This document shows positions 6,141 to 59,075 of a stretch of DNA of 64,000 nucleotides, piece by piece; the first letter of the stretch is position 1; each line of letters starts with the position of its first letter. Below the pieces are notes generated by a model. It was not told the DNA's origin. It searched no databases and was given only the letters and a program-made list of their open reading frames with translations. Source of the DNA: Trichobilharzia szidati (Eukaryota > Platyhelminthes > Trematoda > Strigeidida > Schistosomatidae); the NCBI GenBank assembly GCA_944472155.2, contig OX235277.1:22454804-22518803 (forward strand). Direction: 5' to 3'. Position numbers and translations under genes: made by a program.

Positions 6141-8220
6141 CATAATTTGCGTTTATTTCAATAAGACATTATTCAGATAAATGAAATCAAAATTTGCAGT
6201 TCGAATTTGGACAGGAACTGTTGACAGAGAGGTAAAAGCTTTAGTAACATTTTGCATGAGTCAGAAAATATTATTGTAATCAAGTATGACTTATTTATAA
6301 GGTTTAAAGGTTAAATGTATTTTTATTCCAAAATTTTCTGTATATTGCAATCTAAAATACTAAAGAAAATATTCTACAAATTACGTACACATCAACGTGA
6401 CCAATGCACTACAGAAATGAATGTTGAAATTTGACATTTGAAATCAGCTTATATTGTTTGAGAATTCATTTTATCGTAGAATAACCTCAATTCCACATCT
6501 ATGAACCATTTTCCTAATTTTTTTCTATTATGCTCAAATCACTAATTGTTATACTATTCCTTCGATGACTATTCTTTAAATGAATTATAAATTTTGTTAC
6601 ATATAATGCTAATCTCACTGTGAAGCATAGTTTTATCTATGAGTTTAAATAATACTGGCTTTGAAAATAATTCTGTTTCCTGAGCTTTCATTTGTAAAAT
6701 AGTTGATGAAGTTACTGATGAAAACGTCATGCAAACCAGTAATGAAATATCCAAGTTCCAAACTCAAATGTCAGAGAGCATCGAACGGTTACATTCTCCA
6801 TAATTAGCCACAAATCTCTATTTCTCTGAAATTGATAATCCTCACGTGTTCATAGGTACTTTGCATTTGAAGAACAACAACGATTAAACGTGATCAGGCT
6901 TGTTGTTTCTTTTCATCAAATCCAGTTAGCATTTAATTCAAGTATTTGAAATTCTCAATAGTGTTATTTCGCACAGTGATACCTAAATCTGAAAGGCGCT
7001 GCCATCTTGAATGAGGCAAATTTCATGCAACTGTTTACCATAATAAACCTGGCTAGATCCAGAAAGATGAATTTAGCAAGATAAGATAATGTGATTAAAT
7101 TTCAGTGTTATCCCTCTCGAAAACATGCAACATAAATACTCAAATTGTGTGCTTGTTAATTCTGAGCTTGTGGGACATCATTATCTCGTGAAGAAATAGT
7201 AACAACTACTCGTATTTCTTCTTATAATGCCGTTTATTCACACGATAATAATGTCGTTCAAATCTAAGATGTAAAATGAATATATCCGTATTCATCTTAA
7301 AATGGTTCATGGCTTTATGCAGTTGACAAGAGAAGCAGCGAAATAAAATGTCGTCATTAACTCTGCTACAACGCTTCTTGTTTAGATTTAATTATAATAT
7401 AAATTCATGCCAGAGGCAACGGGGAGTCTACAAGCGAAGCAGCTGGATTCCTATCATGTCTCCTACAACTGCTGTTATTAGTCTCATTGTCATTTGTGAA
7501 TAACTCGAACTTATTCACTTCGTACTGTGAATACTAATTACTTACAATCTGACTCTTTCATAATGTGATGAAACCTTGGGATACAAAAGTTAAAATTATC
7601 TCATAGATAAACAGCATACCGTATAAAGCGCTTTCAGTGGTCATTGTGACATGTTATGTCTGGAAATAGTAAAACGTTTTACTCAGGAGAATTCATTTCT
7701 ATAGAAGTAGACCTGAAGTAACAAACATCACGACAATACAGTACCACCCCAAATTGAAATTTAGTTCAGCCCATCAAAAACGTACAACAAGGTGATCACA
7801 AATGCCCACATCTACTCTTGTAGGTTTCAATAATAGAATAAATGTCATCGAGTTTAAAAGCAGTGAGCTTAGATATGACCATTTATTTAACCTGGGAAAA
7901 ATTCAGACACTCTACTATATCATATATACACCTAAGGCTGGGTGTATCTGAGAAATATTACTTTAACACTTAAATCGTGGTTTCGTATTATTTTAACTGG
8001 TGGACAGTGTGATCGCATTCTTTTGATATCATTTCCAATTGAGAGACTATGCTATACATGTCAAACTGAAATTTCTTGTGGGTTAATATATTCGACAAGA
8101 GAATTTGCAGGTTACTTCGATTTCAGAACTAATGTAAATTTTGACGTCCAAATTACTTTTCGCGTTGGGAAGTGTAATGGTTCCTGCAACTTGATAACAA
8201 ATGTGTATCATGTTGAACGA
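6141..8220. repeat. Segmental duplication, copy A (partner 27615-29360)
   Basis: Diverged but collinear with 27615-29360. Examples are ATAATTTGCGTTTATTTC near 6142 versus ATAATTTGCATTTATTTC near 27615, TACAGAAATGAATGT in both, and AATATTACTTTAACAC near 7955 versus AATACTACTTTAACAC near 28830. It ends with a homologous 27-nt micro-exon candidate. The offset between copies is about 21.2-21.5 kb, so the copies have accumulated indels. It appears to be an intron-plus-exon unit of the micro-exon locus duplicated in tandem. I could not find the duplication edges. Confidence 0.6.
8157..8183 (-). CDS. Candidate 27-nt micro-exon (duplicate of 29305-29331)
   Basis: On the minus strand the acceptor is TTGCAG and the donor is GTAATT, weaker than at most other sites. 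Read in the phase common to the locus, the exon encodes T-I-T-L-P-N-A-K between two split codons. The homologous exon at 29305 encodes T-I-T-L-P-D-G-K. Conservation of length (27 nt), of phase and of the peptide core in a diverged duplicate argues for real coding sequence. The weak donor leaves open that this copy is decaying. Confidence 0.55.
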
Positions 8221-8540
8221 GTAAGTATTTGTACAGAAAACGTGACATGAACAAATTTTTACTTAAATTGTGTGATCAGGTGTGTATCTTACTGCCTACT
8301 GTTGTAACCGTAGTGGAATTAGATGAGGACGTTGTCGCCTTGTTCTGTCTGCGCCTGACTAATATGCCTATCTGCTTCTGGTACCTTCCGATTCAGCGAA
8401 CCACGCAAATATCAAAAGACAAAGTCTGGTCTCTGACTTTATATTGTAGTACAACAACTACGACTACGACGACAAATAACTTATTTAGGAAATGGTATTT
8501 ATACTATTTTACAACCAATAGAGACAGCTAACAGTATTTG

Positions 8541-8788
8541 AAATAATTGGTCGTAATAGTCAATAACAAAATGCGTGGGAGTGATGATATACCACTTATG
8601 CGAGATTAACAGTCATTAAGATAATTGAACAATAACGAAGTGTGTGAGAATTGATGATATACAACTTATACGAGATTAACAGTCGTTAAGATAATTGAAC
8701 AATAACAAAGTGTGTGGGAATTGATGGTATACAACTTATACGAGATTAACAGTCGTTAAGATAATTGAACAATAACAAAGTGTGTGGG
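8541..8788. repeat. Tandem repeat, about 70-bp unit, 3 to 3.5 copies
   Basis: The words AACAATAAC(A/G)AAGTGTGTG, ACGAGATTAACAGTCGTTAAG and ATAATTGAAC recur at 70-bp intervals (ATAATTGAAC at 8621, 8691 and 8761), with a more diverged first unit from about 8541. Later units are nearly identical. No homology to the other repeats in the window. It is probably a young intronic minisatellite. Confidence 0.85.
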
Positions 8789-9563
8789 ATCCTATTACCT
8801 ACAAAATGGTTATATGCATTATGCTGCTGCTCTTTCTGTTTCACTATAGGGAATGCATGATCACAACGTTACAGAAATGGGTTATTAAGTGACAATGCTA
8901 AACAGACTGAGCGTGGCATTTTTGTACTCTAGATGTTTATTTGAATTCAGGCACTCGTTATCTTGTTCAGTCAAGTTTTCAGAAACCTGAAATTCAAAAT
9001 GTACACTAAGCTTATCCAAATATATCAGCCTTGGTAGGTTCAAGATGAGAAACGTTCATGAGTGAATATACGCCAGAGACCGCTTTACGATAAAGTCGGC
9101 GTAGACCTAGAGTAGGCGTAAATTTTCTGAGCAAATATTTCTTGATATTTATTACAGCTTGGAGATAACAATGCAACATAGACTGGTAAACTGACTTTGC
9201 TGCACTTTCTATCATGAAATGTGATTCACATATGATGATAATCATTCTGATGGAGTAGTAAACTGATTGATGTGAATGGTTCTTCATTTGTAATCCAAAA
9301 TGGCCAGTAAATAACAGTTTAATGTGCGCATTCATTTCTTTTTAATATCTGCACCTCGCGAAAATGGATAAATGAAAGTTTGAATAAAATCTACAAAATG
9401 CTAAGGTATTTATGAGCAAGGAGGATAATAGTTGACAATAGTCTTATTGATAATTCCGCATACATGCTTCTCGTGTAGGTCAACCTTCACAAGAAACGGT
9501 TTATGCAAACCAATCAATAACTTAAATTTACTAGTAGTTATTTTATCAGATTATGTTCTATAC

Positions 9564-9569
9564 GCTTAT
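9564..9569 (-). CDS. Candidate 6-nt micro-exon
   Basis: Minus-strand pattern CTAAAGCAG | ATAAGC | GTATAG. The surrounding sequence is homologous to 11130-11200, which has a 6-nt candidate at the same relative position (ATAGGC with a better GTATGT donor). Open in the common phase. Six-base exons are weak evidence alone; the duplicated context is the main support. Confidence 0.35.
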
Positions 9570-9748
9570 CTGCTTTAGTGAATGTTTTGAAGTTGATTTG
9601 TCTGTCATGTCACCTTCACGTAAAAGAGCGACAACTCCACCCTATGTATTCATGTCCGCACATGTAAGCTGGTATAAAATGTTGAATGTAAAATATGCAG
9701 TGGAAGACCATAATAACAGCTAATTGACATTGACTCATCTCTTCTCAC

Positions 9749-9766
9749 CTAATCGATTTGTAATCA
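9749..9766 (-). CDS. Possible 18-nt micro-exon
   Basis: Minus-strand donor GTGAGAAGAG resembles the donor of the 21-nt exon at 30926 (GTGAGTGAAGAG), and the location fits the 21-kb offset. The acceptor would be TTATAAG, which is poor. Open in the common phase. It may be a decayed counterpart of the 30926 exon. Confidence 0.2.
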
Positions 9767-11154: not shown

Positions 11155-11160
11155 GCCTAT
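11155..11160 (-). CDS. Candidate 6-nt micro-exon
   Basis: Minus-strand pattern ATCAAAACAG | ATAGGC | GTATGTAAA, with consensus-like sites on both sides. Flanks are homologous to the block around 9564. In the common phase the exon supplies one whole codon, AGG, plus split codons. Confidence 0.4.
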
Positions 11161-11608
11161 CTGTTTTGATGAATGTTTTGAAAACGTGTATACAAATGCT
11201 TCGGTCACCTCGGCATATCATTTAGTTCCAGAAATCATCCACAAGCATTGGCACTTTTAATGTTTATCCCGTTTATATTCCTTTCTTTCATCGACAAACG
11301 TTTATTTCACAGCTTCTTCGACTTCACGTCTTTTGTTAACAGGTCTTAGAACTTCGGTTTATCATTTTAACTTTGGTCATTATATTTACAGCTCTCTGTT
11401 CATTCCACTTCACTTCATTTATTAACTGTTAGTCATTCACGAACATAACATTTAATTTTGCAACACAGCATCGTTGTTCTTATTTCTCACCCTTCGAACA
11501 TACCTGGAGCATACCGCACTTGTCGGTTTATTTCTCTGTGGTATTCAAATTGTCTCCCCTACCACAGACTACACTCACCACTGAAAGGCGTACTTCATTT
11601 GTCTGAAT

Positions 11609-11609
11609 T

Positions 11610-11640
<31 letters not shown>
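11609..11640. repeat. (TA)n microsatellite
   Basis: A run of alternating T and A interrupted once, inside AT-rich spacer. Confidence 0.8.
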
Positions 11641-16217: not shown

Positions 16218-16237
16218 AAAACACCCCTATTCAATTT

Positions 16238-19808: not shown

Positions 19809-19819
19809 AGAATAATGTC

Positions 19820-20048: not shown

Positions 20049-20059
20049 AGAATAATGTC

Positions 20060-27614: not shown

Positions 27615-29360
27615 AATTTGCATTTATTTCGTTATGACATTATTAACACAAACAAATTAAAAATTTATAGAGAGAACGAATGGAGAACGAATTCTAGTAT
27701 GAGCGGAAAACGCAAGATTCACACATTTAATGAACCAGAAAATGTCAGTGTAGATCAATTATCATTTGAGTTTGTGAAAAATTTAGTGGTAATTTTATTG
27801 TGAGGAAGCGTCCTTCCCGTGACCTAAAAGACAAATCAGAATATTTTGAAGGATGAGTGCAAACAGTTGTAACCATTGTAATACAGAAATGAATGTGTGA
27901 ATTTAACGTGGTAAATAGACTTATGTATCTTGACACTTATTCCGCATTACAATAACTTAAAATTTCCTCCAGTGAACTATTATCCCCGATTTCTCTATTT
28001 ATAATTAAGTCACCAATTGTTTACATAGACTCTTGATCACAACTCGGTAACTGACATACGTTATTTGTGATACAAAACAGTATTAATTTAACTTTTATCA
28101 AAGCAGAAGCCGTGATATTCAATGATACGTGGGCATATAGTTGAAGAAGAATGCATTTAAAATACTTTCTGTTTCGATATTTGATTGTTGGCATTTTATC
28201 AGATATTTGTTGAAGACAGCGATGAAGGTGCCATGCGAATCGGCAATAACTTATCCAGGATCTGATGTAGAATGCCAGGGAGCATCAAACACTTTTCATC
28301 ACTGCGTTATGTTACCTAGTGATACGTGAATGTGAAAGGTACAACCAACATGGATAACCAAAATTGTAAATAACTCAAAGATATGAACTTCGTCATGTAA
28401 ATGTTTAGTGTGAACAACACGAATCTTTCATTATGTGTGACGAAACAACCTACCGCATCAATTGATTCAGGGGTCATTGCGACAAGTTATTTCTAGAAAT
28501 AATGAAAATATTACTGAGCAAATTATCAGTTCACGAGTGTATATTAGACAAAAGAATACTATTTGACATGGATATTCATTTCAGTCTATAAAAACGTGTG
28601 ATCACAGATTCCTCTTTTAGTGCTGCTTGATTCTTTATATTAGTAGGGCTTAACCCTAGAACATTTATCATTAGATTTCAGAGCAGTGAAATACATACGG
28701 GAGGACATATGCTACTTAAAATTCTATTTGAGCTTAAATATGAGTATTTGGAGGAACTATTTCATTCTAGAAGGAACCTGAACACAGAGTTGTTTCAGTT
28801 ATTTCAATAAAAGTAGTGGTATTTAGAAAATACTACTTTAACACTGCAATCACAGCTTTTAATCTGAGATTTCGAACTATGTAATTGCATTTTCGTAGTA
28901 TCATTTCCCTGTGCAATACTTGTTTATAAACCTGACACCAAACATGCATGAGAACGTTTATGTGGTTGTTTGGATACTTTTCGTTTGACATTATCTTGAG
29001 GTTACTTTACTTCATTTCATGTGCTAGGCTTCTACAACACATCCAAGATGTGAAATTACAATTATTTACTCAGTGAATGTATCACATAATGAAACGATAT
29101 CATGCACTGTGTAGTATTATTTACTTCTGTTATTTATACAATAAGGAATTAATATGAAATCTTGAATTACTATGATGTGCAATAATTATCTACACATTAT
29201 TAACTATGATATTGGAGTCGAATTCAATTTCCTTAGATGTTATTGTCTAGGGAGATTGATTTCATGGCTTCAGTAAATGATACATATCTCTCTGTCAGAC
29301 TTACGTTTCCCATCAGGGAGTGTAATGGTACCTGGAATTTGTGAATTGAATTTTGTTTTG
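27615..29360. repeat. Segmental duplication, copy B (partner 6141-8220)
   Basis: Collinear with 6141-8220 through several matching blocks and ending with the homologous 27-nt exon. Divergence and indels are substantial, indicating an old duplication. See copy A. Confidence 0.6.
29305..29331 (-). CDS. Candidate 27-nt micro-exon
   Basis: Minus strand: acceptor CACAAATTCCAG, donor GTAAGTCTG, both strong. In the locus phase it reads T-I-T-L-P-D-G-K between split codons; phase 1 contains a TGA. The duplicate at 8157 keeps length, phase and the TITLP core. This is one of the best supported exons. Confidence 0.65.
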
Positions 29361-30925: not shown

Positions 30926-30946
30926 TCGTTGATATTTCTCCCTTGG
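30926..30946 (-). CDS. Candidate 21-nt micro-exon
   Basis: Minus strand: CATATTTGTAG | 21 nt | GTGAGTGAAG. In the locus phase the exon is open and reads K-G-E-I-S-T between split codons. Confidence 0.5.
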
Positions 30947-31147: not shown

Positions 31148-31156
31148 CCTGCTTCA
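31148..31156 (-). CDS. Candidate 9-nt micro-exon (pair with 31407)
   Basis: Minus strand: ATCATTTAAG | TGAAGCAGG | GTAAGTGAA. Phase 0 would start with TGA; the locus phase is open. Flanks resemble those of the exon at 31407 (acceptor side CTTAA(A/G)TGA, then GTAT), so the two are a local duplicate pair. Confidence 0.5.
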
Positions 31157-31406: not shown

Positions 31407-31415
31407 ATTTCTTTA
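31407..31415 (-). CDS. Candidate 9-nt micro-exon (pair with 31148)
   Basis: Minus strand: GTCACTTAAG | TAAAGAAAT | GTAAGTCTG. Phase 0 starts with TAA, but the locus phase reads TA AAG AAA T. Duplicate of the 31148 unit about 260 bp away. Confidence 0.5.
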
Positions 31416-32185
31416 CTTAAGTGACATAACGTATCAATAAAGACCGTCAAGAATCACATTCAGAATAACAAAGAAGACGGTGATGAACGTATTTCATAAA
31501 GAATAAATGCATGAATAATTTCATAGATGACTAATCGATAAGTGGGCACCCAACTGATAAACAACAGTGCATTTAAGAGAAGTGTACTGATTATAAATCT
31601 GATATTTCTTGCGCTGTCTTTAGGTAAGAATAATGTTTATATTAGCGTATGGTTTTCTTCCGAAGTCATTATTATATTTCACTCTAATTAACTAGATGGT
31701 CATTTATTAAATATATATCCAGTAACCTAATGTATATACTGTTCAGTTCTAAACTTTTCTGCTTCCTTATGGGAACAGAAACATCATCCTGGATAGCTCA
31801 GCTATTGACGTCAGTAGTCTCTGAATTAATAGTTCAGGAATATTTGTACTCCAATATGTTTCGTGTTCAAATATTAGTATATCTTTCCCATAATGGTGCA
31901 TGTTTTGCTGTCGACAATACATTTTGTTGTGAAGTTACTGTTTATCATTATAACAGAGGAACCTTCTACTTACGAAATAGTTCTGAAAACAAGAAATGCA
32001 TTTCAAAATGCTTACAGTTGAGTAAGAGTCGTTATCAGGTTTCAAAATGTAAGAATAAGCTCACACATCAGGGAGCATACAGCAACGTTTCAGTGTTAAC
32101 AGAATAGTCAAAAGAACTTGATAAGGTCCAGTAGAATATATAGGCCTAGTAATATTGACATTAATTTACATGCGCATGTTATTTT

Positions 32186-34557: not shown

Positions 34558-35100
34558 TATTATGCTGGAATGTGTAGATTCATGAAGTAACCAGAGTATT
34601 CAATATCTGATAATGTGTTCAAATCATCGGAATCCGTCTTCTTCAGATATCTTTTATCATTATGGGGACAGCCCCAGCCTTATCGTGTAAGGTTTCATTA
34701 CAAAAACGCTAAATGTGATACGACCCAATTTACCAATTTTGTATTCTCAAAAATTTGAAGGAATGATATTCATAATACACCTATATGTGTCCGCTGAAAT
34801 ATAATAAATGATGCCACCTGCTTTGAATAGTGTGCCAGTCTTTCAGTGGTTAAGCTTTTTTCTTGTCACATAGATCTAACCTTCACTGATTGAAGAGGCG
34901 GTATGATATAAATCGAAGCTTCATTTAGGTTAACACCATTTTTTCAGTGAGTCAATTTGATTCGCAGTCTCATCATGTGTATTCATGCTAGCTCTAAATA
35001 CATTGTTAGCTGAACAGTTTTCAGTACTCTTTTGAATATTTTCAGTGATCGTATGTAAAACTCACCTTCCCCACCTGGATTGAAAGAAGTTTTTGTACAT
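34558..35100. repeat. Micro-exon unit, diverged copy 1 of 3
   Basis: Starts with TATGCTGGAATGTG, then GAAGTAACCAGAGTATTC, related to the starts of the units at 36440 and 37540, and ends at the 9-nt exon 35066 with the acceptor-side word CTGGATT on the plus strand. More diverged and about 190 bp longer than the other two copies. Confidence 0.5.
35066..35074 (-). CDS. Candidate 9-nt micro-exon (unit copy 1)
   Basis: Minus strand: CTTTCAATCCAG | GTGGGGAAG | GTGAGTTTT. Strong sites on both sides. The acceptor AATCCAG is shared with the exons at 36764 and 37854 while the nine exon bases differ. Confidence 0.65.
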
Positions 35101-36418
35101 ATTCCACTCCTTGAAATGCTCTGCTTCGAATTCATGGCACAGATTTCGAGTACACGTATGTTCTCAAAATCAAACACTATTTTAATTATTTAATCCTTGT
35201 TTCATTTGTAGTCAGCAGTTACTTATGTACGCATACGGTATAAGTTTCCAATTTATAAATACATTTGCAGATAAGCATTTCGATTTTTGCTCAAGCAGAA
35301 CTATGACATCCGAGCCCAAATCAAGACTCTTGCGGTTTTTCTTCGATGAGCTTATGTGATAAACGATAGTGTATGAGGTGTCATCATTATGAATTTTTCT
35401 GCATACCGTTTTGATTAGAGCTATTTCAAGAGCTGATTGAGTCGACATTTCCACACTTTCAACACCTCCAAGCAGACAGATGAGGACAATGTTTTCTTTG
35501 AGTTATAGCAACTAATGCTTTAGTGGATCCAAGTGCCCAGACACGTTCATAAACTTTTTATTTTATTATACGGAAATCGTCAAGGCGTCTATTTTGAAGT
35601 GATTGAGGTTAAAATATTCGGAGTGAGGAGAACAATGGATGGGATAGATATTGTTCACATGTCTGTAATCTGAAATTTCCGTCTAGGTTTCATGTTCAAC
35701 ACTTATATGTACAGCACGAAAGAGTGATCTGTTTAACTGTATCCTGATAATTCGCTGAAAACTATTCTGAAACTGTATTAGTCAATATCTTGTGAATGAC
35801 TTCTTCCAAAAGAAATACAAATACAAGTTTAAACTGAAGACATCTGCATTTCGCTTTGTTAATTTTTACAAAACCTTCTATACAGTAAAATCTTCATTGT
35901 GTTTGCGTCCTCCTTCACTGAAAAGACAATAAACTTCACATTAAAAAGCGAAAACCTTAATATGTAAGCCCAAATATTCTGAATACGTAATCTTCTTGTG
36001 TACTTCACTAAGAATCAGTTCTATTAAAAATTAAGCGGAAGTTAATATGTCGTTTAAGAATGCAGACAGTAGAATTCAATGTTCACTTCTACTTACTCAT
36101 GGTGTCTGAATGAGACAATAATACGTTCGTAGAATTCACTGCACACGTTAATGGTTTCTTAGACAAATGCAGGATCAGTTCTGACAATGACTGATCTACA
36201 TAAAAAGAGGATCCAAAGGGAAGCACACTGATATTTCAAAATGATGAGATATAAGAAGAAAGAGAAAACATTCACTAATAAAGTTATCACCGAGAAGGTG
36301 CAAATTTTCTAAGAAAAAAACAGTGAGATTCTTCCCTGACTTCATCTTTTATCAGAGAGTATTTTTGATGTAAATTTACCTCTTCTCAAAGACCAGTAAG
36401 TCTTTTTGATAATAGTTT
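35101..36418. other. Intronic spacer with one micro-exon
   Basis: AT-rich; contains the exon candidate 36097-36105. Two short minus-strand ORFs (60-80 codons) have no motif. Confidence 0.5.
36097..36105 (-). CDS. Candidate 9-nt micro-exon
   Basis: Minus strand: TTGTCTCATTCAG | ACACCATGA | GTAAGTAG. Excellent acceptor and donor. Ends in TGA in phase 0 but is open in the locus phase (AC ACC ATG A). Confidence 0.6.
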   Translation of the reverse strand, partial: TP

Positions 36419-36900
36419 GCCTAAGAATATCTGAGTCATTGTTTTATGCTGAAACGTGTGAATAAATAGAGTAACTGTAGTATTCGTTTTGTGTTCAACT
36501 TGTTGGATAATACAAGCTGATTTAAGAAAATCCTTCATGTGAAACAGAAAAGTGTCAAAGATATGTCAGGTTCCGCATATGTCACCATTATAAATGAATG
36601 TTATTACCACTTTTCGCACACATCAGACATCATAAGGATGCACTGTTCCAATTTACGTTGCGAGTAATCTACGCTAACTACTTTAATATTTCTAGATATT
36701 TCTTTCTAATGCGCGACACACAATAAATACCGTACCACAAGAAATTTCAGGACATAAACATACCAAAGTCACCTGGATTAGTGAAGCAAGTTCCAAGTTG
36801 AGAAAATAAGAATATTAGTGAAAAGAAAGAGAACGGGAGATAAACACAAAATAAAAATTATATGTTCGGTGTAAACCGTGAATTGTGTTACTTAAATTAA
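36419..36900. repeat. Micro-exon unit, diverged copy 2 of 3
   Basis: Collinear with 37515-37985. Shared words include GTGAATAAAT/ATGAATAAAT, AGATATGTCA, AAATTTCA, ACAAACATACC/ATAAACATACC, CCTGGATTA and AAGTTGAGAAA. Offset about 1.09 kb. Confidence 0.75.
36764..36772 (-). CDS. Candidate 9-nt micro-exon (unit copy 2)
   Basis: Minus strand: TTCACTAATCCAG | GTGACTTTG | GTATGTTTA. Both sites consensus-like. Phase 1 contains a TGA; the locus phase is open. Confidence 0.7.
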
Positions 36901-37514: not shown

Positions 37515-37985
37515 TTGCATTAAAGTATTTTGTGTATTTTAGTGTTCTGAAATGTATGAATAAATGAAGTAGCAAAGTATTCTTTGTATGTGAAACTGTT
37601 TCTAGAAGTACAAGATGATTTTAAAAGTAGTTTGATGTGCTACTGAAAGGTTATCAGAGATATGTCATTTTCTGCCTCTAATATTTTTGAAGGAAATGTT
37701 ATGACTATATGTTCTAAATCTCATACGTAATATGTGCCGGGTCAAGCTGCAAATTATTTACGTTATACACTCAATTTCGCTCTAGTTATTTGCTACTAAT
37801 CCGCGTCATCTAATATATTGTGTGCTCCAACAAATTTCAAATTACAAACATACCGAAGGTTCCTGGATTAACAAAGGATGTATCAAGTTGAGAAATTTAC
37901 AGCATTAGTGAAATGAAAAAGAGATACGGATGAAAACAAGATATCAATTCTCAATTAAGTGTTAGTTGTGAATTATATTCGGTGA
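37515..37985. repeat. Micro-exon unit, diverged copy 3 of 3
   Basis: Partner of 36419-36900. Splice-site neighbourhoods are well conserved while the nine exon bases are largely changed. Confidence 0.75.
37854..37862 (-). CDS. Candidate 9-nt micro-exon (unit copy 3)
   Basis: Minus strand: TTTGTTAATCCAG | GAACCTTCG | GTATGTTTG. Strong sites. If joined directly after the exon at 39662, the junction codon would be TGA, so either the two are alternatives or an exon between them is missing from this list. Confidence 0.7.
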
Positions 37986-40007: not shown

Positions 40008-40016
40008 CATCCCTAA
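40008..40016 (-). CDS. Candidate 9-nt micro-exon
   Basis: Minus strand: ACACATTCCAG | TTAGGGATG | GTGAGTTGT. Strong sites. The layout resembles the unit at 35066 (GTGAGTT donor, TCCAG acceptor), suggesting common ancestry. Confidence 0.6.
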
Positions 40017-40549: not shown

Positions 40550-40558
40550 GACCCAATT
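40550..40558 (-). CDS. Candidate 9-nt micro-exon
   Basis: Minus strand: ATCGCTTTAAG | AATTGGGTC | GTAAGTTG. Strong donor, AAG acceptor as in the 31148/31407 pair. Open in the locus phase. Confidence 0.45.
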
Positions 40559-41927: not shown

Positions 41928-41936
41928 GTCTATCCA
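41928..41936 (-). CDS. Candidate 9-nt micro-exon
   Basis: Minus strand: TTCTTATTTAG | TGGATAGAC | GTGAGTGG. Strong sites. Phase 1 contains TAG; the locus phase is open (TG GAT AGA C). Confidence 0.6.
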
Positions 41937-43446: not shown

Positions 43447-45446
43447 GAATTAGTGTTTTCTTTTTATTATTTTCTGAATGAGGATTATCCACGGAAAGTA
43501 CAAACATAAAAGAAAGCTAGAGACATTATTATGTCCGGATATCTTTAAAATCATCGGATAAGAAATCCTGTATGACTACGGAGGGATGCAGAATGGTGGG
43601 CATCAGAAATGGACCCCCACAAACACCGCGAATCTGAATGATCTAGCGAGATGTTGACGCAAGTTATGAGGCGTTGCAGACATCCTTCTTCGTTGACGCA
43701 CCTCCTCACAGTTCATTGAACAGGAAATAACATGGGATGGTCAATACAGGAAATTCCATACTTATATATATTTATCAAGAAAGAGAAACCTGGTCCACTG
43801 CTCATCTTCAGTAGTAAATAATATATGCACTAGCTATCAAATCGACACAATTGCAAGCGTCATCTGATGGAAGTGCATCTAAAGTGCGTCTGATGAAAAA
43901 ATCAAAGTCTCTAATATACTGAATTGTATATTTCACGACTAGAAGCTAGTATTGGGTGATCCATTACTTAAGGGTTTCTTGTATGTTTCATGTTATCCAA
44001 TGACTGTAGCATTGATTACACGCAAAATTATATGTTAGGTGTCGGAAGTCTCATGGAGGATTACCATTGTGAAAATGCGTAACTGAGAATCGAGCATAAG
44101 CTATGCATTGATCAATTTATTAACGCTATAAAATAGGAAATAACAATGAATATTTGGTCTAATAAATGATGGAGTAAACTTCAGTTTCCGTCGAATTTTT
44201 CTTGAACATTCCTACTCCGTAAAATTGATGTTGCAGTCATGTCCTACACTCAGGATATCATATGCTTCTTAATTACTTCAGTGATTATACGTAAGGAGAA
44301 AACACTGATGAACGTACAACTAATCAGTTAATCAAGCAACAGAGTGAATATCATGGTCTAAATCATCAACTTGAAACATTTCACAAATTCCTATCTTTAT
44401 TGTCTAAGGCATTCCATAGTTTTGTGCAGTATTCGCTGGATTCTGGCTTCATAATATTTCAGAATTCTAACTCACAAAATTCCCCTAAATGAATAAAGGA
44501 ATAAGCAATGAATTTGTTGTCTGGTATGAGCTAAATGGTAAATCTTCACTAATATTAAAATGCATGGGGATTATGCAGATTCAAATTGATTCGAAAGCAT
44601 ACAGTCACTAGTTGTTTCCGAATTAAGTACAGAGAAGTGAACAAGTGAATTGGACTCCTTTCTAACAACATGAATCACCAATGACTGTTTACGTGAGATA
44701 TTAGACTGAACTCAAGATGACGAATTACTTGAATATTGACCGGTAACTGATTGTCCTCAATGATTCTGTTGTTTAACTTTATTACGAATGTGGAGGTAAC
44801 GGAAATGAATCATCGAACACAAACATTTCTTCACCATCGATGGCTTTTTTATTACAACTTCAAATCTGACTTATTCATACTGGTGAAAGTTTAGAAGATC
44901 TTTACATGATGTAATTTTCCAGTGTCAATTCACATATTTATCGCTTAGAATTAAGATGAATGAACGGAATGTATTAAATAGCGATCACATGAAAGTAGAA
45001 TTTTTCTTTCACGTGGTGATGATATCTGAGGTTGATGTAATGAGTTTTCAATCATGATTATCTTTGATCACAAAATTCAATGAAACTACTAATTTCAGCA
45101 TGAAATAAGAGGTTTCTGATTGTGTCTCTCCTGGAGGAGATTAAGGGATTAAGAATTTCAGAATTTTCGCTAGCCATAACGTCAAATATTTGTAATCTAA
45201 CAGCGCAAAGAAATCTTTCTCCGATTCTTATGCAACCAAAAGTGACAAAATGAATGACTGCTGTCATTTGAGTTCAAAATTCAGATGCGCAACGAATCTT
45301 TGTATTAGAATTCTTTAAATGCAACTTGAAACATGACAACACCTTACTACTGCTTCATAGGCTCAAAAGGTCGTGTATTTGTGTAAACATAATTTAGTGG
45401 TCGCAAGATAATTTTCTGGAGAATTCTTCTTTTCTTCTTCTTATTG
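43447..45446. other. Spacer
   Basis: About 2 kb AT-rich; no micro-exon pattern with acceptable sites found. A short GC-richer patch at 43575-43700 is unexplained. Confidence 0.45.
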
Positions 45447-45874: not shown

Positions 45875-47959
45875 TCTCCCTGGCAGATATTCTCAAGATA
45901 ACAGTATGAAGAAGTGACCACCGTAAACTGTTTATTTAGCCCTTTGATATGCTGAATTTTTTGTTTGCAGCTTGATCGAAATCACTGTTACGCACTGCTC
46001 CTGAACAATATCCCGAAACATATGGTTGCAACATTTAGTAAAGATAACATCCAATTTAACTGGTGATTCATGTTTGCTGCGATGCGTCCAATGTAATTTC
46101 TGTGATTTACTAAGTATGTAAAGGTTACAGCACTGCGCTGTTAATATTAATGCTTATTGTTCAGTTAACCTTTTACTGTACGAAAGCATCCTTTTTCAAA
46201 AATGTCTGAAGTCATTGAATCAATACACATTGAACTGAAATTCATGACTCACTAGGATCTATTAATAAAGAATATTCATATTAGGCACAGTTAGGCAAGT
46301 GTGGAGGGATTCAAAGTTTTGTGAAAACCAATTTATATTTATTATATTATGTTATTCCTAATTGTATGCCCATGTATATATATAAATATATTTCTTTGTA
46401 TTCCGTGTAGTCAGTGTCACCAAACAAAACTAATCAAGTGCATCAATAGTGATTCTTTAAATAAATAACTTCGCTACTTTTTGTAAAATAGATGAAAGTG
46501 GTCAACAAAATGCTGAGTAGAAGACCTACCATTCGATTCTCTTTTAATATACTCAACACCCATACGTTGTGATTCTTGTCGATGTACAGTGACATCGACC
46601 TGAATATCTCAATCAATTTTTCTACTCAGTCTAGTTAGAATTTCGGTAAAGTGTGTATAATTTAATTAAAGATGGGGAAACATAATCACTATTTCATAGT
46701 GATAAGATGGTTCTGTTACATCTAATGAAACTAATACAGGAATACATTTTATATTACTGAAGTTAGAACAAACGGTGAAGCAAATTATCTCACATTCTCC
46801 CACTAAAATTTCCAAAATGACGGAATTTACTTGTTTGCAAAATCAAAGTACATTTCCCTCAATGGAAAAATATATGGGAAAAACAATAATCTATAAAATA
46901 ATTTTGTTCAGATGTTTTTGTAGTTTATGTATATAAATATGAAACAGTAATGAAGTTAACTGTGTATTCTGGTGGAAAATAATATACCGCTCTCGAGGAA
47001 ATCATCCTCTTTCGGCGTGCTTACTGTGAGTTCAGCACTCGGGGATATGCCAGCAGTTCACAAAACAACATTTTACGGTGCAGTTTAACAATACTCTTTC
47101 GAATCATCGATGTGATTTGGTTGAATTCAATTCTGGTTTATTTTTTAATAAGCGCCAATTTGAAAATTGAGAATCAGTGTAGGAGGTTTCACACAGGCAA
47201 GCCAAATTCACAAAAGAGCACGGCTAGAAGGTCAAAGTGAAGCCACGAAATGGTGAACATATTGAAAGACTTAGCTGACATACCCCAGAACATTGGAAAC
47301 AAACTTCGCTCCATGTGAATTTCTGCTTCAGTGTAACCACCAAAATAAATTTGAAACGTTTCCCGGCTTTATTACCAGTAAAAATAATGATGAATGATTT
47401 CAGTCGTCATCTGCTGGTCAGCGAGTGGTATAGACAAATGATTAAGTTAAACCTATCATGTTGTGAATTAATAAGTTTGAAACATCATTTGACACATGCA
47501 CTTCAATCTGTTTATGAAAATGATTTCAAATAGTTTTCACATTTGAATAAAACATTCAGAAGATAAATTTTGCGAGATATCATTTCGTAGATTCTCCACA
47601 CTCTTTTTACAACTAAAACGGTCCCCAATAATGAAATAATATGCATCACAATTACTCAGTCATATGAAACAAAAATACATACTAATGGCCAATCAAATTT
47701 AAATAGGTCAAGTAATCTATGATGGGCGAAGGTTGAAGACTATTTTGTTTTGTCCACAAAGTTCAGTATGTATGTGATTAATCCATTTTGCTTACATCAC
47801 CTTTAATAACCTTGAATTACGTGAGTTATGTGAAATAATTGTGAAGCAGACATTTCTATTGCTTTTGTGACCGTACATTGATAACTGCTTTGCAGTCTAT
47901 GATGATGGATTTCTATTCAGATTAGTTGCATTGGGATTTTCTCTGTCTTATTAAATATT
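45875..47959. other. Intronic spacer with one micro-exon
   Basis: AT-rich; holds the candidate at 46794. Nothing else supported. Confidence 0.5.
46794..46802 (-). CDS. Candidate 9-nt micro-exon
   Basis: Minus strand: TTGGAAATTTTAG | TGGGAGAAT | GTGAGATAA. T-rich TAG acceptor, good donor. Open in the locus phase (TG GGA GAA T). Confidence 0.6.
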
Positions 47960-48868: not shown

Positions 48869-48877
48869 ACAGTTTTC
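48869..48877 (-). CDS. Candidate 9-nt micro-exon
   Basis: Minus strand: TTTTGGTATTTTAG | GAAAACTGT | GTAAGTACG. Very strong pyrimidine-rich acceptor and consensus donor. Confidence 0.65.
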
Positions 48878-49453: not shown

Positions 49454-51076
49454 CTTGGATGAAGCTATCATCATACTTGGATTTGCTTTCATATACATAT
49501 ATATACATATATGTCGGATATTAGACTTCAAAATATCATAACTTGACGTACGAAATTCTTCTGAAGTGATGCAAAAGAACGCTTTTTTATGACACAAAAT
49601 ACATGAAAGTCATTCATATTCCACTGTATTCACCCTAAACATGACACAATTCACAAGTTTGTTGAGAATAAAAACAAGTCAAATATGCCAGTTCCAGCTG
49701 GAAACGGATTACAACGAAATTTGGATTAATTTGCAGAGCATGTCTTTGACTCAATCGATTATTTACACAAAGCCGAAACAAAAACATAGGCCAGAAAACG
49801 AATTGATTAACCTGTTACACAATTCACTGAAAGCTATGACTGTAGTTAAGAAACCCCTTCCTGCCTGACATCTGACTTTGCAACATTCTAAATGATCAGA
49901 GAAGATTCAATTGGTTTGAATGTTTGAATGCTTTCTGACAAGGCGTTAGACATCACTCCTTGAGATTACAGCAGCGAGAAAATCACGGTAATTGCTGCAG
50001 AATTAGTAAAGGATAACTAAATTTTTCATGACATTTGTGTGGAAGAACAACCTGCTTCTAACTTGAAGTCTTTTGTTTAAATTTTGCTGAAAATCTGCTT
50101 TACTTGAATCTGACAAACATTACATCACTTTCAGAAATAGCTTGTTTGAATAAGTAGTAAACTTCTAATCTTGTGATCCTAAGTTTTAGTCCTGCTTCAG
50201 CTGATGTAACCTGCGATGCCTATAGGAATAGCCAATCTTCTTACAGTAGATTCGTCTCCTAACATGGCTTATGAGAATTAGAATGATTTCAAAACCTCTG
50301 CAAATATACTTCGCAACTTCGATGCATGCAGTGTAACCAGATACAGTGTAGGATAAAATGTGTAGGCGGTTAATCGTCGTTAAAGCTTCCAGAATACAGT
50401 AGATTTGCAACATGCATAAATATTTGGAGCCATATGGACCAAGTAAGTATGGTGGTGATTTCTTTCTCACATAGATTTACACAATCAAACAGCTACTTTT
50501 TCCAACGTATATATTTTGAACTACAAAATTTTTTCATGTATTACACTTGCAGTATTTAGGAGATAAATGAGTGAGCATGTGGTCTATGTGATTTGATCCA
50601 ACTACTTGACAGGAAATATAAAAAGGCTGGGATGTAAGTGAACAGGTCGACTACCATAGGTTTTGGACTGAAGGCCTCAGTTTACTTTAACTAACAACAT
50701 TTGGATATGTAAATGGAGCTCAGAAAGTTGATTTAAGATACTTCCCAATAAATTGGAAGGTTTTTTCAGATCAATTAACCGAAACAATGTCACAATAGCC
50801 GAATAGACACTACAAGAGAAATATTCATCTCTATCTTGGTTTTTCCTTTAGTCATCGTCTTCAAATAGATAAGTTCCTTTTTCGCATATATTAAATGCAG
50901 TATAGAATTTGCCCAATAATCCAAAATAAAAGTGTACACGACAGAAATCTGTATTACCTGCATTTTTCAGTTTAGCGTATTATTTCGCCGATTGTAATGT
51001 ACTATCGTTTAGTTAATTTGTTCTGAGTTACACTTCAACAAAATCACTCTTTTTCATTTAGACTATATGAACATAC

Positions 51077-51085
51077 CTTTATCTT
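51077..51085 (-). CDS. Candidate 9-nt micro-exon
   Basis: Minus strand: TGATTGAATCAG | AAGATAAAG | GTATGTTCA. Strong sites. Phase 1 contains TAA; the locus phase is open. Confidence 0.6.
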
Positions 51086-52461
51086 CTGATTCAATCAAAC
51101 AATGAACACAATGGAGTTCATACTGAGATAGGTATGTAACCGATTCATTGCTAATGAAGTGAAATTGAACTGATATTCGAATGTTATTCTTTGACGAAAT
51201 TTATTTGAAAAACAAGTTCCACTGTGGATTACTGCTAAAGATATTCAAGGATTGTTGGTGGCTGACCCAGCTGTGCATAGTAGCACGACAGCTTGCGAAA
51301 ATGTATTGTTGGTCAAACGAAAACAAAATTGTTATACCACAAGAAATTTTCAAATAATGGTGGATATATATTCCATGAATTACAATCAATGTTACTTAAC
51401 ACGTTTACAAATCGAGAATCGACTTATTATTATTTTGTGTTTTCTATATATGAATCTGCTTGTTCAGTGATATTTTGAATGAACGGCTACAACGAAATGC
51501 TTTTTTTAAACTGCTACCAGAATGATTTTGAGCAAATAAGTAAAAGAAGTATATAGAAGAGATGGAAATTTTGTGGACCTGATTTAAACTTTGGATATCA
51601 TCTTTTCAGTATTAGTTGTGAATGAATACCTACATGAATAAGATTATTGATGAAAATGATAAGCAGCACCAAAATAGCTGCGTTTGAAACTCACTTTCGT
51701 GCTGAACTGGAAAAGAGAACCATTTTGAGGGTAACTGTGGGAATAATAGGACCAGTCTCGTCTTCCGAAAGGCATGAAGATTTTCCCATTAATTTATATT
51801 TTGTGAGTCATGATTGACACTGTTCTTATCCGCAATTCCGTACAGATTCTGGAGTAACACCTCTGACATTATAGAATTAAACAATCGAGTTGCTGCCGAA
51901 AAGTTGTAATATGAGTTGTTGTGTAATAACGGATTGTAGCTGGCGCTTCAAAATTGCCAGATGTAGCTCCAGTAACCTCGCGATCTAGAAGCCAAAATAT
52001 AGTAATGGTAGGGAAAATGTGTGCAAGGCGTAATATTCCAGATACTACTGCGATTATCACTGACATCCAACAACATGTTACCAAACCCTCTCCTCAGTGA
52101 TATGACCTGAAACTGCCAAACTGCCTCCCATAGAGGCGGTCTTACACAGAAGAAACATGGAGTTCAAGAAAGAGTTTTCACAGCAGAAGGCAATCCAGCC
52201 TGACGGAACCTCTAATAACACGGATTTGAATCAACCCGAAGATGATTCATTTCAGTATCAGTGGATGGCTAGAAATACGAACTTATTCGGTCTTAAATAA
52301 TTACAAATATATACACTGAAAGAAATTAGTAGATATCACAAAATCAGCGAGTTGGAACTTTCCTTCGATGGGGAATAATCATAATAATATCATTTCATTT
52401 ATTAGGCATGATGAGAAGAGTCATCGTTAATGAGCATCTGGTTGTTTTGCTGGTTACTTAC

Positions 52462-52467
52462 GTTTAT
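52462..52467 (-). CDS. Possible 6-nt micro-exon
   Basis: Minus strand: CATTTTGAAG | ATAAAC | GTAAGTAAC. Consensus donor, AAG acceptor; very short. Confidence 0.3.
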
Positions 52468-54504: not shown

Positions 54505-54513
54505 TAACTGCAG
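54505..54513 (-). CDS. Candidate 9-nt micro-exon
   Basis: Minus strand: TTGTGCTTTGCAG | CTGCAGTTA | GTAAGTAAA. Strong sites. A second CAG inside would give a nested 3-nt alternative (TTA). Confidence 0.6.
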
Positions 54514-54989: not shown

Positions 54990-54998
54990 CTTTACAAT
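54990..54998 (-). CDS. Candidate 9-nt micro-exon
   Basis: Minus strand: ACCTGATTTCAG | ATTGTAAAG | GTGAGCAC. Strong sites. Phase 1 contains TAA; the locus phase is open (AT TGT AAA G). Confidence 0.65.
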
Positions 54999-56112
54999 CT
55001 GAAATCAGGTAGTACGAGGAAATATGTATGTATATAAGTTATTAGTATGTCAGTTACTAAACATAATCGCACTTCAGAGATTGGCATAACTTCCTAGAGT
55101 ATGCCTGTGTCGAAATGATGAATAAAGACAGATTTTGACAATCTCTATCTACATCTTCACTATCCATATTAAGTTTGCTTAAGCGTATCCCACGAAACTG
55201 AGAGCGAAACAACATCGTACGGACAATCCTACATGAACTAATCTGTTGTAGAAATACTAGCAGTGCAACAAATTCTGATTATATTGACTGAATATATGTT
55301 TCAGTGTTTCTTGTAAGTACTACTGAGTAAAGTAAAATACTAATAAGCAATATCTCTTCGAATGCATAGTCTGTTGTCATTTCAACAAGTGTGAGATTTG
55401 ACAAACAGTCATCGAAAGTGTTTATTCCCTTCGTCTTTAACTCAACAATGTAGCCTACTCATTTTTACTGCATTTACTTAGTCTTCAATGGATAGGTTGA
55501 AATTCTGTCGTCAATAGTGCGTGAGAAATCGAGTAATATGGCTGACAGCGAAAACGTTAATTCATCACTCTGCGTTGCATCAAATAAACAGAATTCAATG
55601 AATTTCAGATAGTAAGTTGTTTCATTCGTTCTTCTGTCCTGCATATCTACACAAACATTCAGTTACGACGGAGAGAATCCAAGAGTTTTATTGTCAGGAC
55701 AGGTGGGTAAGTTTTGGCTTAAAAACAGTCCGTTACATCAACTCAGACAAAAGATCGCTTGGAGATTGACTAGATTTATTAATCGCCAGTTGGTGAATGA
55801 TTAACCTGCAGAAGGAGATTGCGAAAACATCAAAATCATACTGTTCATCAACTCACTGTCTAACATTTGCGAATCAACCGTTCATAAAATGCCTCGAGTC
55901 ATGCAGACAAAGTTACATCCAAATAGAATTCATGCCTTAATAAGTTGTCTGTACTTTCAAAATAGAATATCTGGGAGCAAAAGTGGTCACAAATCTGTCT
56001 GTTTACTCTAAAGCAATGGTTTGGTGGAGGGCTAGAAATATCATTTCCGTAATTTGTGAAAAACGGTGAAATATGTCCGTGAAATTCCAGATATTTAAAT
56101 AAGTGCACTTAC

Positions 56113-56121
56113 CCCTCTTAT
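56113..56121 (-). CDS. Candidate 9-nt micro-exon
   Basis: Minus strand: GTTTTCATCTTAG | ATAAGAGGG | GTAAGTGC. Very strong sites. Phase 1 contains TAA; the locus phase is open. Confidence 0.65.
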
Positions 56122-57328
56122 CTAAGATGAAAACATCATTTTCACTACTTTCATGATGCAATTCAAGTAACAAATTTAGAGCATTTTCAAAAGTACGCAT
56201 TCGTCTCTCTTGGTTAATAATATTGAATTTTAAATTCATTAAACAACAATTCGAAGGACCATAGCGATATTCCGTAAAACCTGTGAAATAAATATATAGC
56301 ACAATAACTCGGTGGTGAAACTTATTTGAGACAGTGTCTTGAGTTACCAAGCCAGTCAGGACTGTCATGTTGTGGGAAAGAATTTCTTCTAGATAATGAT
56401 AGCGAGATTCAAGTCGAAGGGAATAATTTCGATTTCTACTAGCTTTTTATTGCATTTGGGTTTATTTCTTTTCTTGAACGAGTGCAATGTACTTTTTTCC
56501 CTCCAAAAACTGGGTATTTTTATACAGCATGATATTCTTATGTAAAACAAGCTAAATTAACTTAAAAAGACTCATCAGTAACATGCTAATGTAAGGCAGT
56601 TTATGACGGAAAATATAAGACCAGGAGACAGTTTGAAAAACGGATGAATAAAGTGTTCGACTACTCATACATTTGAAGCCAAATCACTGAGAAGCCATTT
56701 TGAGAACGTGTTGTTAAGAGACGTTTCCACATTTGACGCTAAATGTTGCTGAAAAATGCAAGAGAAGTCAACTTTGAAATAGCCTTGGTGATAGTGGAAC
56801 TGAAATTGGCTACGATTACAATTAGCATGAAGCTGGAATGCGAAACACTGATTCACACGATCACCAAACGTTAGTCTGACGAACAACACTATTCCAGGCT
56901 GCGTGTGTTTGTGCAGAAGAGACGCAGTTCTACGAATGTATGTTCAGTAGTCTGATAATGCACTCATGATAATGATAAATTACAGAGTTCCAATGTGCAC
57001 CTTGAAATTTGACATGGTGTTACTATGGATGCATAATCCGCTCTCTCTGTGAGTAATGATCAACTGCTGTTAAGCCATTGCACACCGACGTACCAATAGA
57101 ATAATCACGTAAGCACATGTAGGTTTTAAGTTACCTGTCACCATGAATGATACTGAGTTTCGCTTTCACTCTCAGATATCAGTAACATCTGAGATTTGAT
57201 TGAATCACGAAAAATGAGGTATTGATCAAAAGTTGAAATTTCTTTTCGACAGTTGGAAAACGCAACAATGTCATGCCATTTAAATCACGTAAACATTAGT
57301 CATCAAAACTGCAGATTTGTGTACTTAC

Positions 57329-57334
57329 AGCCTT
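57329..57334 (-). CDS. Candidate 6-nt micro-exon
   Basis: Minus strand: TTTTTCTTTTCCTTTATAG | AAGGCT | GTAAGTAC. This is the best polypyrimidine acceptor in the set, with a consensus donor 6 nt later. Confidence 0.55.
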
Positions 57335-57474
57335 CTATAAAGGAAAAGAAAAACAAATATGTGTCACACCATCATAGCTGTAACATATGTAGTTCACAGC
57401 AAAACATGTAAAATAACTAACAGCGCATTCGCGTATTTCATTTACTTCCAAAATATCACTCAGATGCGGCTTAC

Positions 57475-57507
57475 CTAGACTGCACAAGCAACAAATCTCA
57501 ATCTGGT
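57475..57507 (-). CDS. Candidate 33-nt micro-exon
   Basis: Minus strand: TGCTTCATATAG | 33 nt | GTAAGCCGC. Open only in the locus phase, where it encodes Q-I-E-I-C-C-L-C-S-L between split codons. The other two phases contain stops. It lies 140 bp upstream of the 57329 exon in gene order. Confidence 0.5.
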   Translation of the reverse strand, partial: TRLRFVACAV

Positions 57508-59063
57508 CTATATGAAGCATGAAGAGATTCACTGTATCATTCAGTAATTATGTGTCTGGTCGGGAACTTTGAAGTAGGTAAAGAGAAATTAACCACCCTT
57601 ACCTCATAGCTCACATTTGGTTTCACTCATTGAATAAAAAATTCTATCGCATTTCTGTGGAAAAATGGTCACCCTAGACGTTGTTAACCCCCTCAATGAA
57701 GAAATATATGCATTTGATTTCATTCGACCGAATCTCACAAAACTCGTGTTTGCGTACTGATTTGCTATGTAAACAGATTTTCACAGATCAAGCATTCAAT
57801 GTCCACTTCACATTAAAGAATAATGTTTTCAAAGGATTTTGTGGTGTAGCGACTAATTCCTACTTGTGTCCTCTCTCAGACGACTAGTGCACGGCAAGCT
57901 TTAAAAAAAATACTCGTCAAAAACAGTTGATGGCCTTCATCTAAATTTGAAACGGAGATGGATGGGAGAATGCACTACGTACTTCCAGTAATGCTCAACC
58001 AAATGTCGACTTTACTCAAAAGGCAGAACCATACTCAAAGTCTGATTGCACTGATTCTTCACCAGTAAAATTGAGCGACAACTAATAGAGGAGATCTGCT
58101 CACGTAGGAGTGACAATTCAATTATTTCCAGATCTGTAGCCTTTTTTCGGAGGGTGGTGTCTCATCAATTCACTTTTCTGGGGACACCAGGAAATATGCA
58201 CCTAAACCTCTGTTGCCTTAAATGCACAACAAGCTCAGAAGAACGATTTTCGGAAATAAGATTTCAAAATGTCTTAGCGAAACGCAATTCTCTGTCGGGC
58301 AACGAATGAAACTCTCTGGTGGGAAACATTTTATCTAGAGTGACCATGTCACTTCACCTTCTCGCCATGGTTCAATTAGATTCGCCACACTGCAGGTGTG
58401 CACTGCTAAAATTGTCCGGCTATCGGGTAACGGGTAAGTGTCTATCATTCGAAAACGGAACAAATCGTTAACTCAGGTTAACAATTAGTTTCGAGTTATC
58501 TGACGTGACCACTGAGTGGAATTGAGATAAAGATATCTGAGAATGAGTGAAGAAGTGACGATTCAAGGACTCAAATCAGGGATATTTGTCCGAAACTGGT
58601 ATGTTTGATTTGAAAGGCGAATGTTATTGAAAGTAAAAAATCACACCATTTCAGCATAAGTGAATAGAAATGCAAACAACCCAGTGCTAAAATCTCAGAG
58701 CTATATGACAAATATACTGATTGTAATTATACATCAGAAGAAAAAGAATCTTTGTTAATGCTGAAGCGGTTCACACGCAAATGGATTTCTCCACCAATCA
58801 AAAGCTCTTTAAGCCATTATAGAATTTAGAATGTCGAAAGGATAAATCTAGAGGTCGAAGGAATAACATCATAACATAACATAATAAGATGAGAGGACGT
58901 GAAAATGTCGCACTCACAAGCCGGTCCACAGAAATGCTTCTCATATACTATGTGACATATATTTTCCTCAATATTTTGCGACCAAAACACAATTACTCAA
59001 ATATAAATGGAACACGAAAAATATACCTGTAAAATGGTTGAGATTGTTTAGACAAAGACATAC

Positions 59064-59075
59064 CTCTCACTTGCT
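59064..59075 (-). CDS. Candidate 12-nt micro-exon
   Basis: Minus strand: ATTCATATTATAG | AGCAAGTGAGAG | GTATGTCTT. Good sites. Open in the locus phase. It is the most upstream exon candidate found. Confidence 0.5.

Follow-up and report, generated by a model that had tools for sequence, protein, structure and literature searches.

A predicted micro-exon gene with mostly nine-base exons, and a cluster of related exon sets, in Trichobilharzia szidati

The window analysed here, a 64,000-nucleotide stretch of the Trichobilharzia szidati genome (C7:22,454,804-22,518,803, C7 being contig OX235277.1 in an assembly of 1.11 Gb and 907 contigs), very probably carries on its minus strand, from 59,075 to 27,795, the 3' part of a predicted micro-exon gene (MEG). 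Trichobilharzia (Trematoda, Schistosomatidae) is a blood fluke of birds, and the genus causes cercarial dermatitis in people. Coordinates are window-based throughout, with negative values to the left of the window and values above 64,000 to its right, and the analysed span of 324 kb comprised the window, 100 kb on either side and an extra 60 kb leftward. The modelled gene lies in copy B (19-112 kb) of a tandem arrangement, with a collinear paralogue, copy A (-140 to -21 kb), 130-160 kb away; copy C starts at about 111 kb and extends beyond the analysed stretch. A first-pass annotation of the window had proposed a MEG-type locus with an unusually uniform exon size. That reading is supported by the phase-1 symmetry of the predicted micro-exons, by their single open frame and signal-peptide-like first exon, by the tandem copies and by the fast divergence of the exons.

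Gene model and reading frame

The modelled gene covered 56.6 kb and comprised a first exon (84,430-84,364), 33 internal exons and a terminal exon (27,823-27,795). Twenty-five of the 35 predicted exons were inside the window, the first of them at 59064..59075, and 10 more lay to the right, up to 84430. The internal exons measured 9 nt in 24 cases, in line with the earlier description of the exons as mostly exactly that length, 6 nt in four, 12 nt in three, and 21 nt and 27 nt in one each. The array had previously been placed at 8157..59075; the modelled gene instead ran from 84,430 to 27,795 on the minus strand, beginning 20 kb right of the window, and the stretch 8,157-27,794 was unneeded. The modelled introns were 201-7,867 bases long (median 1.2 kb) and all were in phase 1 (after the first codon base), so that the reading frame would survive the skipping or duplication of any internal exon.

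Chaining of the exons in phase 1 gave 139 residues in one open frame (136 before exon 76,110 was included), and the remaining two frames of the 34-exon chain contained 7 and 14 stops, the 35-exon chain being alike. Random AG-Nn-GT chains with the same lengths and from the same region, drawn from pools that include the real exons, were open in 39 of 20,000 cases and had a mean of 6.8 stops. When the conserved 9-mers of the gene span were taken with no frame filter, 22 of 22 were open in phase 1 in copy B and 21 of 22 in copy A, and the other two phases were open in 18 and 15 of the same 9-mers in copy B and in 19 and 13 in copy A.

We scanned the minus strand of the 324 kb for possible first exons (an ATG frame, a hydrophobic start and a phase-1 donor) and found 19 places. 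The top hydropathy among them belonged to 84,430 in copy B and -59,890 in copy A, which encode the identical protein MKVILCLLFCLFIMVIYTEGTS. The first exon, 84,430-84,364, is predicted to encode the signal-peptide-like MKVILCLLFCLFIMVIYTEGTS, as judged by hydropathy only. The first modelled micro-exon follows 4.8 kb downstream, and CTATAAAT, which we take to be a TATA-like motif, lies upstream of the signal-peptide-like exon. At the other end, downstream of the 27-nt exon at 29,305, a strong acceptor at 27,823 was common to three copies and was followed by a phase-1 stop within 30 bases. A 39-nt candidate at 28454 was rejected as the last exon because the acceptor at 27,823, kept in the three copies and with its region recurring in 27 sets, fits better. 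The predicted mature part (from residue 21) has 119 residues, 42% of them charged.

The gene product is likely a protein of about 139 residues that is secreted, evolves fast and is assembled from three-codon modules. On this model the exons would be spliced as drawn, alternative skipping would make protein variants, and the product would be secreted at the host interface.

The nine-base peak and divergence between copies

The strict pattern ([CT]AG, nine bases, then GTAAGN, GTATGT or GTGAGN) was found at 19 minus-strand and 8 plus-strand sites in the window. Resampling of the window in 2-kb blocks (300 runs) gave 3.4 ± 1.75 sites (maximum 9) on the minus strand and 3.0 ± 1.75 (maximum 10) on the plus strand, and the same pattern at the other lengths, 3 to 60, averaged 3.9 (maximum 9) and 3.3 (maximum 7), respectively. 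Nine-base sites with an AAG acceptor numbered 8 on the minus strand and 1 on the plus strand. With a splice matrix at threshold 7, positions 1-80k contained 11 minus and 4 plus sites at n = 9, and other lengths gave mostly 0-1 and at most 3. Over the 324 kb, with paralogous copies counted, n = 9 gave 31 minus versus 11 plus sites, and other lengths averaged 1.4 (maximum 6) minus and 1.2 (maximum 8) plus. In the minus-strand gene span at threshold 10, 20 sites at n = 9 were conserved in copies A and B, and the other lengths (3-60) averaged 0.77. A similar A/B conservation test on the plus strand, over the whole aligned stretch, gave 4 at n = 9, and one other length also gave 4. Both the peak at nine bases, which is stronger on the minus strand, and the bias between strands are genuine, and the plus strand is not empty.

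The first-pass annotation had listed 14 minus-strand nine-base sites, all of which were present as described, and the bias it reported toward the minus strand was recovered in the counts on both strands, the minus strand exceeding its shuffles and the plus strand falling short of an equal number. The plus strand had been credited with only one such case, which the eight counted above contradict. Eleven of the 14 sites entered the gene model; 39662, 21208 and 46794 lay outside it. Site 39662 has lost its donor and its length in the paralogue, 21208 lies downstream of the terminal exon, and 46794, with sites kept in the paralogue and a compatible frame, was omitted for its weak score. Three other candidates (18885, 18318 and 18030) were rejected as antisense within a reverse-transcriptase open reading frame, and the plus-strand site 5489 was rejected as an exon, the GT donor being missing in 2 of 4 homologous copies.

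If AG-N9-GT were frequent in AT-rich intron-like sequence and the list a selected one, the array could be the work of chance, which would accommodate both the mistaken plus-strand count and the three listed sites that fell outside the model. Such an origin is scarcely credible given 19 sites against 3.4 ± 1.75 in the shuffles, a peak at n = 9 that is conserved in the paralogue and a single open frame, and the at least 27 sets of first, penultimate and last exons described below speak strongly against it.

Copies A and B aligned in 38 pieces with 70-96% identity. Across 32 micro-exons (315 nt) they showed 61 differences versus 25.3 expected from the intron flanks, 2.4 times as many (Poisson P about 1e-9); leaving out the most diverged exon brought the count to 53. 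In the signal-peptide exon there was 1 difference, and it was silent. In exons 31974, 36764 and 37854 the nine bases were partly or largely replaced with AG, GT and length unchanged. Splice signals differed at 12 positions versus 44.8 expected, a low divergence that is partly built in because the exons were picked for kept sites.

Homologous flanks were also found within the gene. Those of 79571 matched 56113 and, at 77.9 and 80.1 kb, two decayed relics; 76110 matched 54990, 37854 matched 36764, and 73637 matched 72458. The flanks of 37854 were homologous to a segment at 33.4 kb as well. These matches suggest that the nine-base dominance arose by repeated copying of a nine-base module, a suggestion that rests on few cases, most of the 33 modules being without such homology. 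Local copying of intron-exon-intron modules would explain that dominance, and each module copy would add three residues without a frame shift because the module is symmetric. On the plus strand, AG-N9-GT units at 39030-39038 and 55698-55706 were strong, lay within introns of the minus-strand gene and were kept in copy A, with diverged exons in copies B and A (CAGTGAATG and CAAGGAATC for the former, GACAGGTGG and GACAAATGG for the latter). They may be inverted modules or belong to another transcript.

Several observations weigh against the predicted gene. The openness of the 9-mers in phase 1 is weak evidence alone, since random 9-mers are open in 87.5% of cases and 22 of 22 therefore has a chance of about 5%, and the weak-site exons 52462, 69719, 40550, 31407 and 76110 were chosen with the frame known. 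The splice matrix was built from general consensus values, and exon lengths were read in copies A and B and part of copy C, with gene models outside these copies represented by their ends only. AG and GT were kept in the paralogue at 12 of the 14 listed sites, yet also at 65 of 77 weak control sites; splice-site retention between copies is thus no evidence by itself. For the mature part, dN/dS came to about 1.2, which does not significantly exceed 1 (Fisher P 0.35). The gene span also contained open frames of at least 100 codons, 7 on the gene strand (the longest, at 64792-63899, with 298 codons) and 9 on the opposite strand; a Pfam search with the 147-codon frame 56446-56006 showed no match at E 1. 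Protein searches against 5.8 billion proteins, which would also have revealed similarity to one of the named MEG families (MEG-1 to MEG-32), gave no match at E 1 (136 aa) or at E 10 (59 aa, N-terminal), and an early 78-aa chain, made without the later exons, had no match at E 0.07 or better in PDB or Pfam; missing protein matches are, however, uninformative because of fast evolution. Finally, copy A under the full chain carries an in-frame stop (counterpart of 36097) and a lost AG (counterpart of 56113).

The damage in copy A, the decayed module relics within the gene and the repeats in its introns would all fit a window copy that is itself the relic of a MEG, with working copies elsewhere in the cluster. 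We consider this unlikely, as the modelled chain of the window copy is open throughout and has both end exons and, at every modelled internal exon, the AG and the GT. The 9-mers might otherwise be non-coding way-stations of splicing, either recursive-splicing or decoy exons, in the long introns of an ordinary gene. The modelled introns are long (up to 7.9 kb), very short AG-N9-GT units could act as stepping sites, and the longer open frames of the span could be its exons; but the single open chain, the presence of 6- and 12-nt exons alongside the 9-mers and an exon divergence greater than the intron divergence make this very improbable. The predicted MEG, for its part, may have further exons within those longer open frames. 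Two of these frames on the minus strand, of 298 codons (63899-64792) and 168 codons (64752-65255), together span the window's right edge and sit in the largest modelled intron, and the 147-codon frame (56006-56446, minus) contains micro-exon 56113 with its flanks.

Exon sets along the chromosome and comparison with known micro-exon genes

The first, penultimate and last exon regions were searched separately in the whole genome, and all match counts are lower bounds. The penultimate exon region gave at least 36 matches, at least 30 of them long (29 on C7:19.57-23.49 Mb and 1 on contig C3), and 6 short ones were left out of pairing. The signal-peptide exon gave at least 40 matches, of which at least 27 cover the query (26 on C7:19.60-23.55 Mb and 1 on C3); 13 partial matches on C3, C6 and C593 were left out of pairing. 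The terminal exon gave at least 31 matches (30 on C7 and 1 on C3) with 90-100% identity. Together these formed at least 27 sets, each with a first, a penultimate and a last exon on one strand, and at least 26 of the sets lay in about 4 Mb (about 3.9 Mb) of C7.

All 27 listed full-length first exons had a same-strand penultimate exon downstream, at 22.9-71.1 kb (median 50.6 kb), and pairing of first with nearest penultimate exons was one to one, with no other signal-peptide exon between. The terminal exon was 1.0-1.8 kb beyond the penultimate exon in 27 of 27 listed sets. Among the matches listed, 3 penultimate and 4 terminal exons were unpaired, and the penultimate exons on C7 had a median spacing of about 106 kb (range 36-767 kb). 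This pairing from separate searches, stated without a chance expectation, supports both ends of the predicted gene.

On C6, C3 and C593, the 13 partial matches to the region around and including the signal-peptide exon are weaker (70-74%) and may point to a wider family sharing this first exon. A second predicted micro-exon gene, oppositely oriented (plus), was seen in the window at 1774-1782 and 4395-4403 and continued left to -17875, where its first exon MFSLLIFCLFTFFVCTGNTS lies in a region 66% identical to copies A and B (E 1e-10 and 9e-10). Its nine-base exons (-15044, -14208, -13530, -1794, -1183, 1774 and 4395) were open in phase 1, and its 3' end was not found in the analysed stretch. 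The list of at least 40 first-exon matches misses members of the family, because the first exon of this second gene is absent from it.

It is an evenly balanced question whether T. szidati has a cluster of about 4 Mb with at least 26 MEGs built on a standard nine-base, three-codon cassette, in which the cassette and its flanking intron are copied within genes and whole genes along the chromosome, while the nine bases diversify and the splice signals and length stay fixed. If so, about 33 frame-neutral cassettes per gene would form a combinatorial generator of secreted host-facing proteins, and the cluster would be larger than any MEG cluster described in the parts of the literature compared here.

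One definition of MEGs calls for at least seven exons, with at least half of them micro-exons shorter than 70 nt and divisible by three, and a run of at least four (PMC7653826); the predicted model has 35 exons, with 33 consecutive internal exons of 6-27 nt divisible by three. MEGs are also described as having short symmetric exons of 6-36 bp that make up about 80% of the coding region (PMC5825161), and in the predicted model exons of 6-27 nt with phase 1 on both sides account for 324 of 420 coding bases (77%). The first exon encodes, by hydropathy, the short hydrophobic N-terminal stretch expected of a MEG signal peptide and ends in a phase-1 donor.

Like the Schistosoma mansoni MEG superfamily (PMC10526429, PMC5825161, PMC4350168), the predicted gene combines a signal-peptide start with many short exons divisible by three and long introns, and it shares secreted products (secretion being presumed here), an apparently fast evolution of the mature part, and tandem and species-specific duplication. 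S. mansoni MEGs tend to have 10-20 short exons, mostly of 15 bp (PMC10526429), a reported tendency and not a defining one, whereas the gene modelled here has 35 predicted exons, 24 of 33 internal exons at 9 nt and none (0 of 33) at 15 nt, with at least 26 sets in about 4 Mb. In MEGs the mature part is reported to evolve fast and the signal peptide more slowly (PMC4350168). The raw A/B divergence (61 versus 25.3 in the micro-exons, 1 in the signal-peptide exon) resembles that pattern, but the mature-part dN/dS of about 1.2 is not significantly higher than 1 (P 0.35). The MEG cluster on Chr6 of Hymenolepis microstoma is likewise a tandemly expanded family with a shared motif resembling a signal peptide (PMC7653826). 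However, it has ten genes in about 0.43 Mb, against at least 26 exon sets in about 3.9 Mb here, and its printed consensus motif differs from the first exon described above.

MEG-encoded secretory proteins are transcribed in T. szidati and T. regenti, with 10 MEG transcripts reported for T. szidati, two of them among the ten most up-regulated in schistosomules (PMC6362228). According to the same source, some Trichobilharzia MEGs are not close to known S. mansoni MEGs, and the transcripts had been annotated through BLASTp comparison with six reference sequences from GenBank. In the titles and abstract starts of open-licence literature on nine-base MEG exons, Trichobilharzia MEGs and MEG clusters, the cluster was undescribed, and an Rfam search gave nothing. 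What is new about the predicted gene is its nine-base unit, its number of exons and its clustering, while the MEG kind, to which it is assigned from the predicted model, is itself known. Such proteins seem to escape gene finders, because the two predicted-protein searches yielded no relative although the database includes other T. szidati proteins. With one dominant exon size, at least 26 exon sets provide a natural experiment on the recognition of tiny exons. The cluster also bears on how MEGs may grow, through cassette copying with live beside decayed cassettes, and on which of two processes, the skipping of exons or the divergence of their sequences, makes the secreted proteins so varied.

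Exon coordinates and neighbouring elements

Table 1. Predicted exons of the modelled gene inside the window, in the order of the gene.
Feature	Position	Strand	Sequence	Observations
micro-exon 12 nt	59064..59075	-	AGCAAGTGAGAG	AG/GT and length kept in copy A, 3 exon changes
micro-exon 6 nt	57329..57334	-	AAGGCT	strong sites in both copies
micro-exon 9 nt	56113..56121	-	ATAAGAGGG	strong in copy B; copy A has lost the acceptor AG; flanks homologous to 79571 module
micro-exon 9 nt	54990..54998	-	ATTGTAAAG	3 changes within the exon in copy A, sites retained; module homologous to 76110
micro-exon 9 nt	54505..54513	-	CTGCAGTTA	
possible micro-exon 6 nt	52462..52467	-	ATAAAC	weak AAG acceptor, conserved in both copies, frame-compatible
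micro-exon 12 nt	51695..51706	-	TTCAGCACGAAA	
micro-exon 9 nt	51077..51085	-	AAGATAAAG	
micro-exon 9 nt	49552..49560	-	AAGAATTTC	GTACGT donor
micro-exon 9 nt	48869..48877	-	GAAAACTGT	
micro-exon 6 nt	46253..46258	-	ATCCTA	
micro-exon 9 nt	44476..44484	-	GGGAATTTT	kept in copies A and C
micro-exon 9 nt	41928..41936	-	TGGATAGAC	
probable micro-exon 9 nt	40550..40558	-	AATTGGGTC	AAG acceptor; conserved in both copies, frame-compatible
micro-exon 9 nt	40008..40016	-	TTAGGGATG	
micro-exon 9 nt	37854..37862	-	GAACCTTCG	sites and length kept, 8/9 bases differ ungapped in copy A; module homologous to 36764
micro-exon 9 nt	36764..36772	-	GTGACTTTG	4 exon changes, sites kept
micro-exon 9 nt	36097..36105	-	ACACCATGA	in-frame stop in copy-A counterpart
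micro-exon 9 nt	35066..35074	-	GTGGGGAAG	
micro-exon 9 nt	31974..31982	-	AACTATTTC	5 changes within the exon in copy A (strong divergence), sites retained
probable micro-exon 9 nt	31407..31415	-	TAAAGAAAT	AAG acceptor (TAG in copy A)
micro-exon 9 nt	31148..31156	-	TGAAGCAGG	conserved in both A and C; acceptor AAG here, TAG in copy C
probable exon 21 nt	30926..30946	-		conserved sites, 6 exon changes
penultimate exon 27 nt	29305..29331	-		kept in copies A, B and C; at least 30 long genome matches
terminal coding exon	27795..27823	-		phase-1 stop codon at end; acceptor TTTGTCTTTTAG kept in A, B and C; at least 31 genome matches

Repeats and mobile elements were found in and around the window. 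An open frame of the non-LTR reverse-transcriptase type, 908 aa long, lay at 16178-18904 (plus). A T. szidati protein matched it at 96% identity across 70% of the frame, and proteins of T. regenti, Schistosoma and Heterobilharzia matched at 55-68%. Open frames at 62646-63715 (plus) contained a reverse-transcriptase part and then the stretch VCGHTYIGRSDRALHVRVGEH; we take the whole to be a Penelope-like element and VCGHTYIGRSDRALHVRVGEH to be GIY-YIG-like. An inverted repeat of 384 bases at 11779-12162 and 12492-12874, whose arms are 97.7% identical and separated by about 330 bases, reads as a recent fold-back or MITE-like insertion. A tandem array with a 70-base unit in 3.3 copies was present at 8561-8789. 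Short interspersed repeats, 71-88% identical and in both orientations, occurred at 1523-1715, 2978-3168, 19824-19900 and 43259-43452, and this family is presumably tRNA-like. A second inverted repeat pair, 47527-47795 and 48566-48838, was 81% identical, and its right arm ended about 30 bases from micro-exon 48869. In the left flank, within copy A, a tandem array with a period of 399 bases and about 34 copies extended from -97354 to -83864 and was absent at the matching place in copy B.

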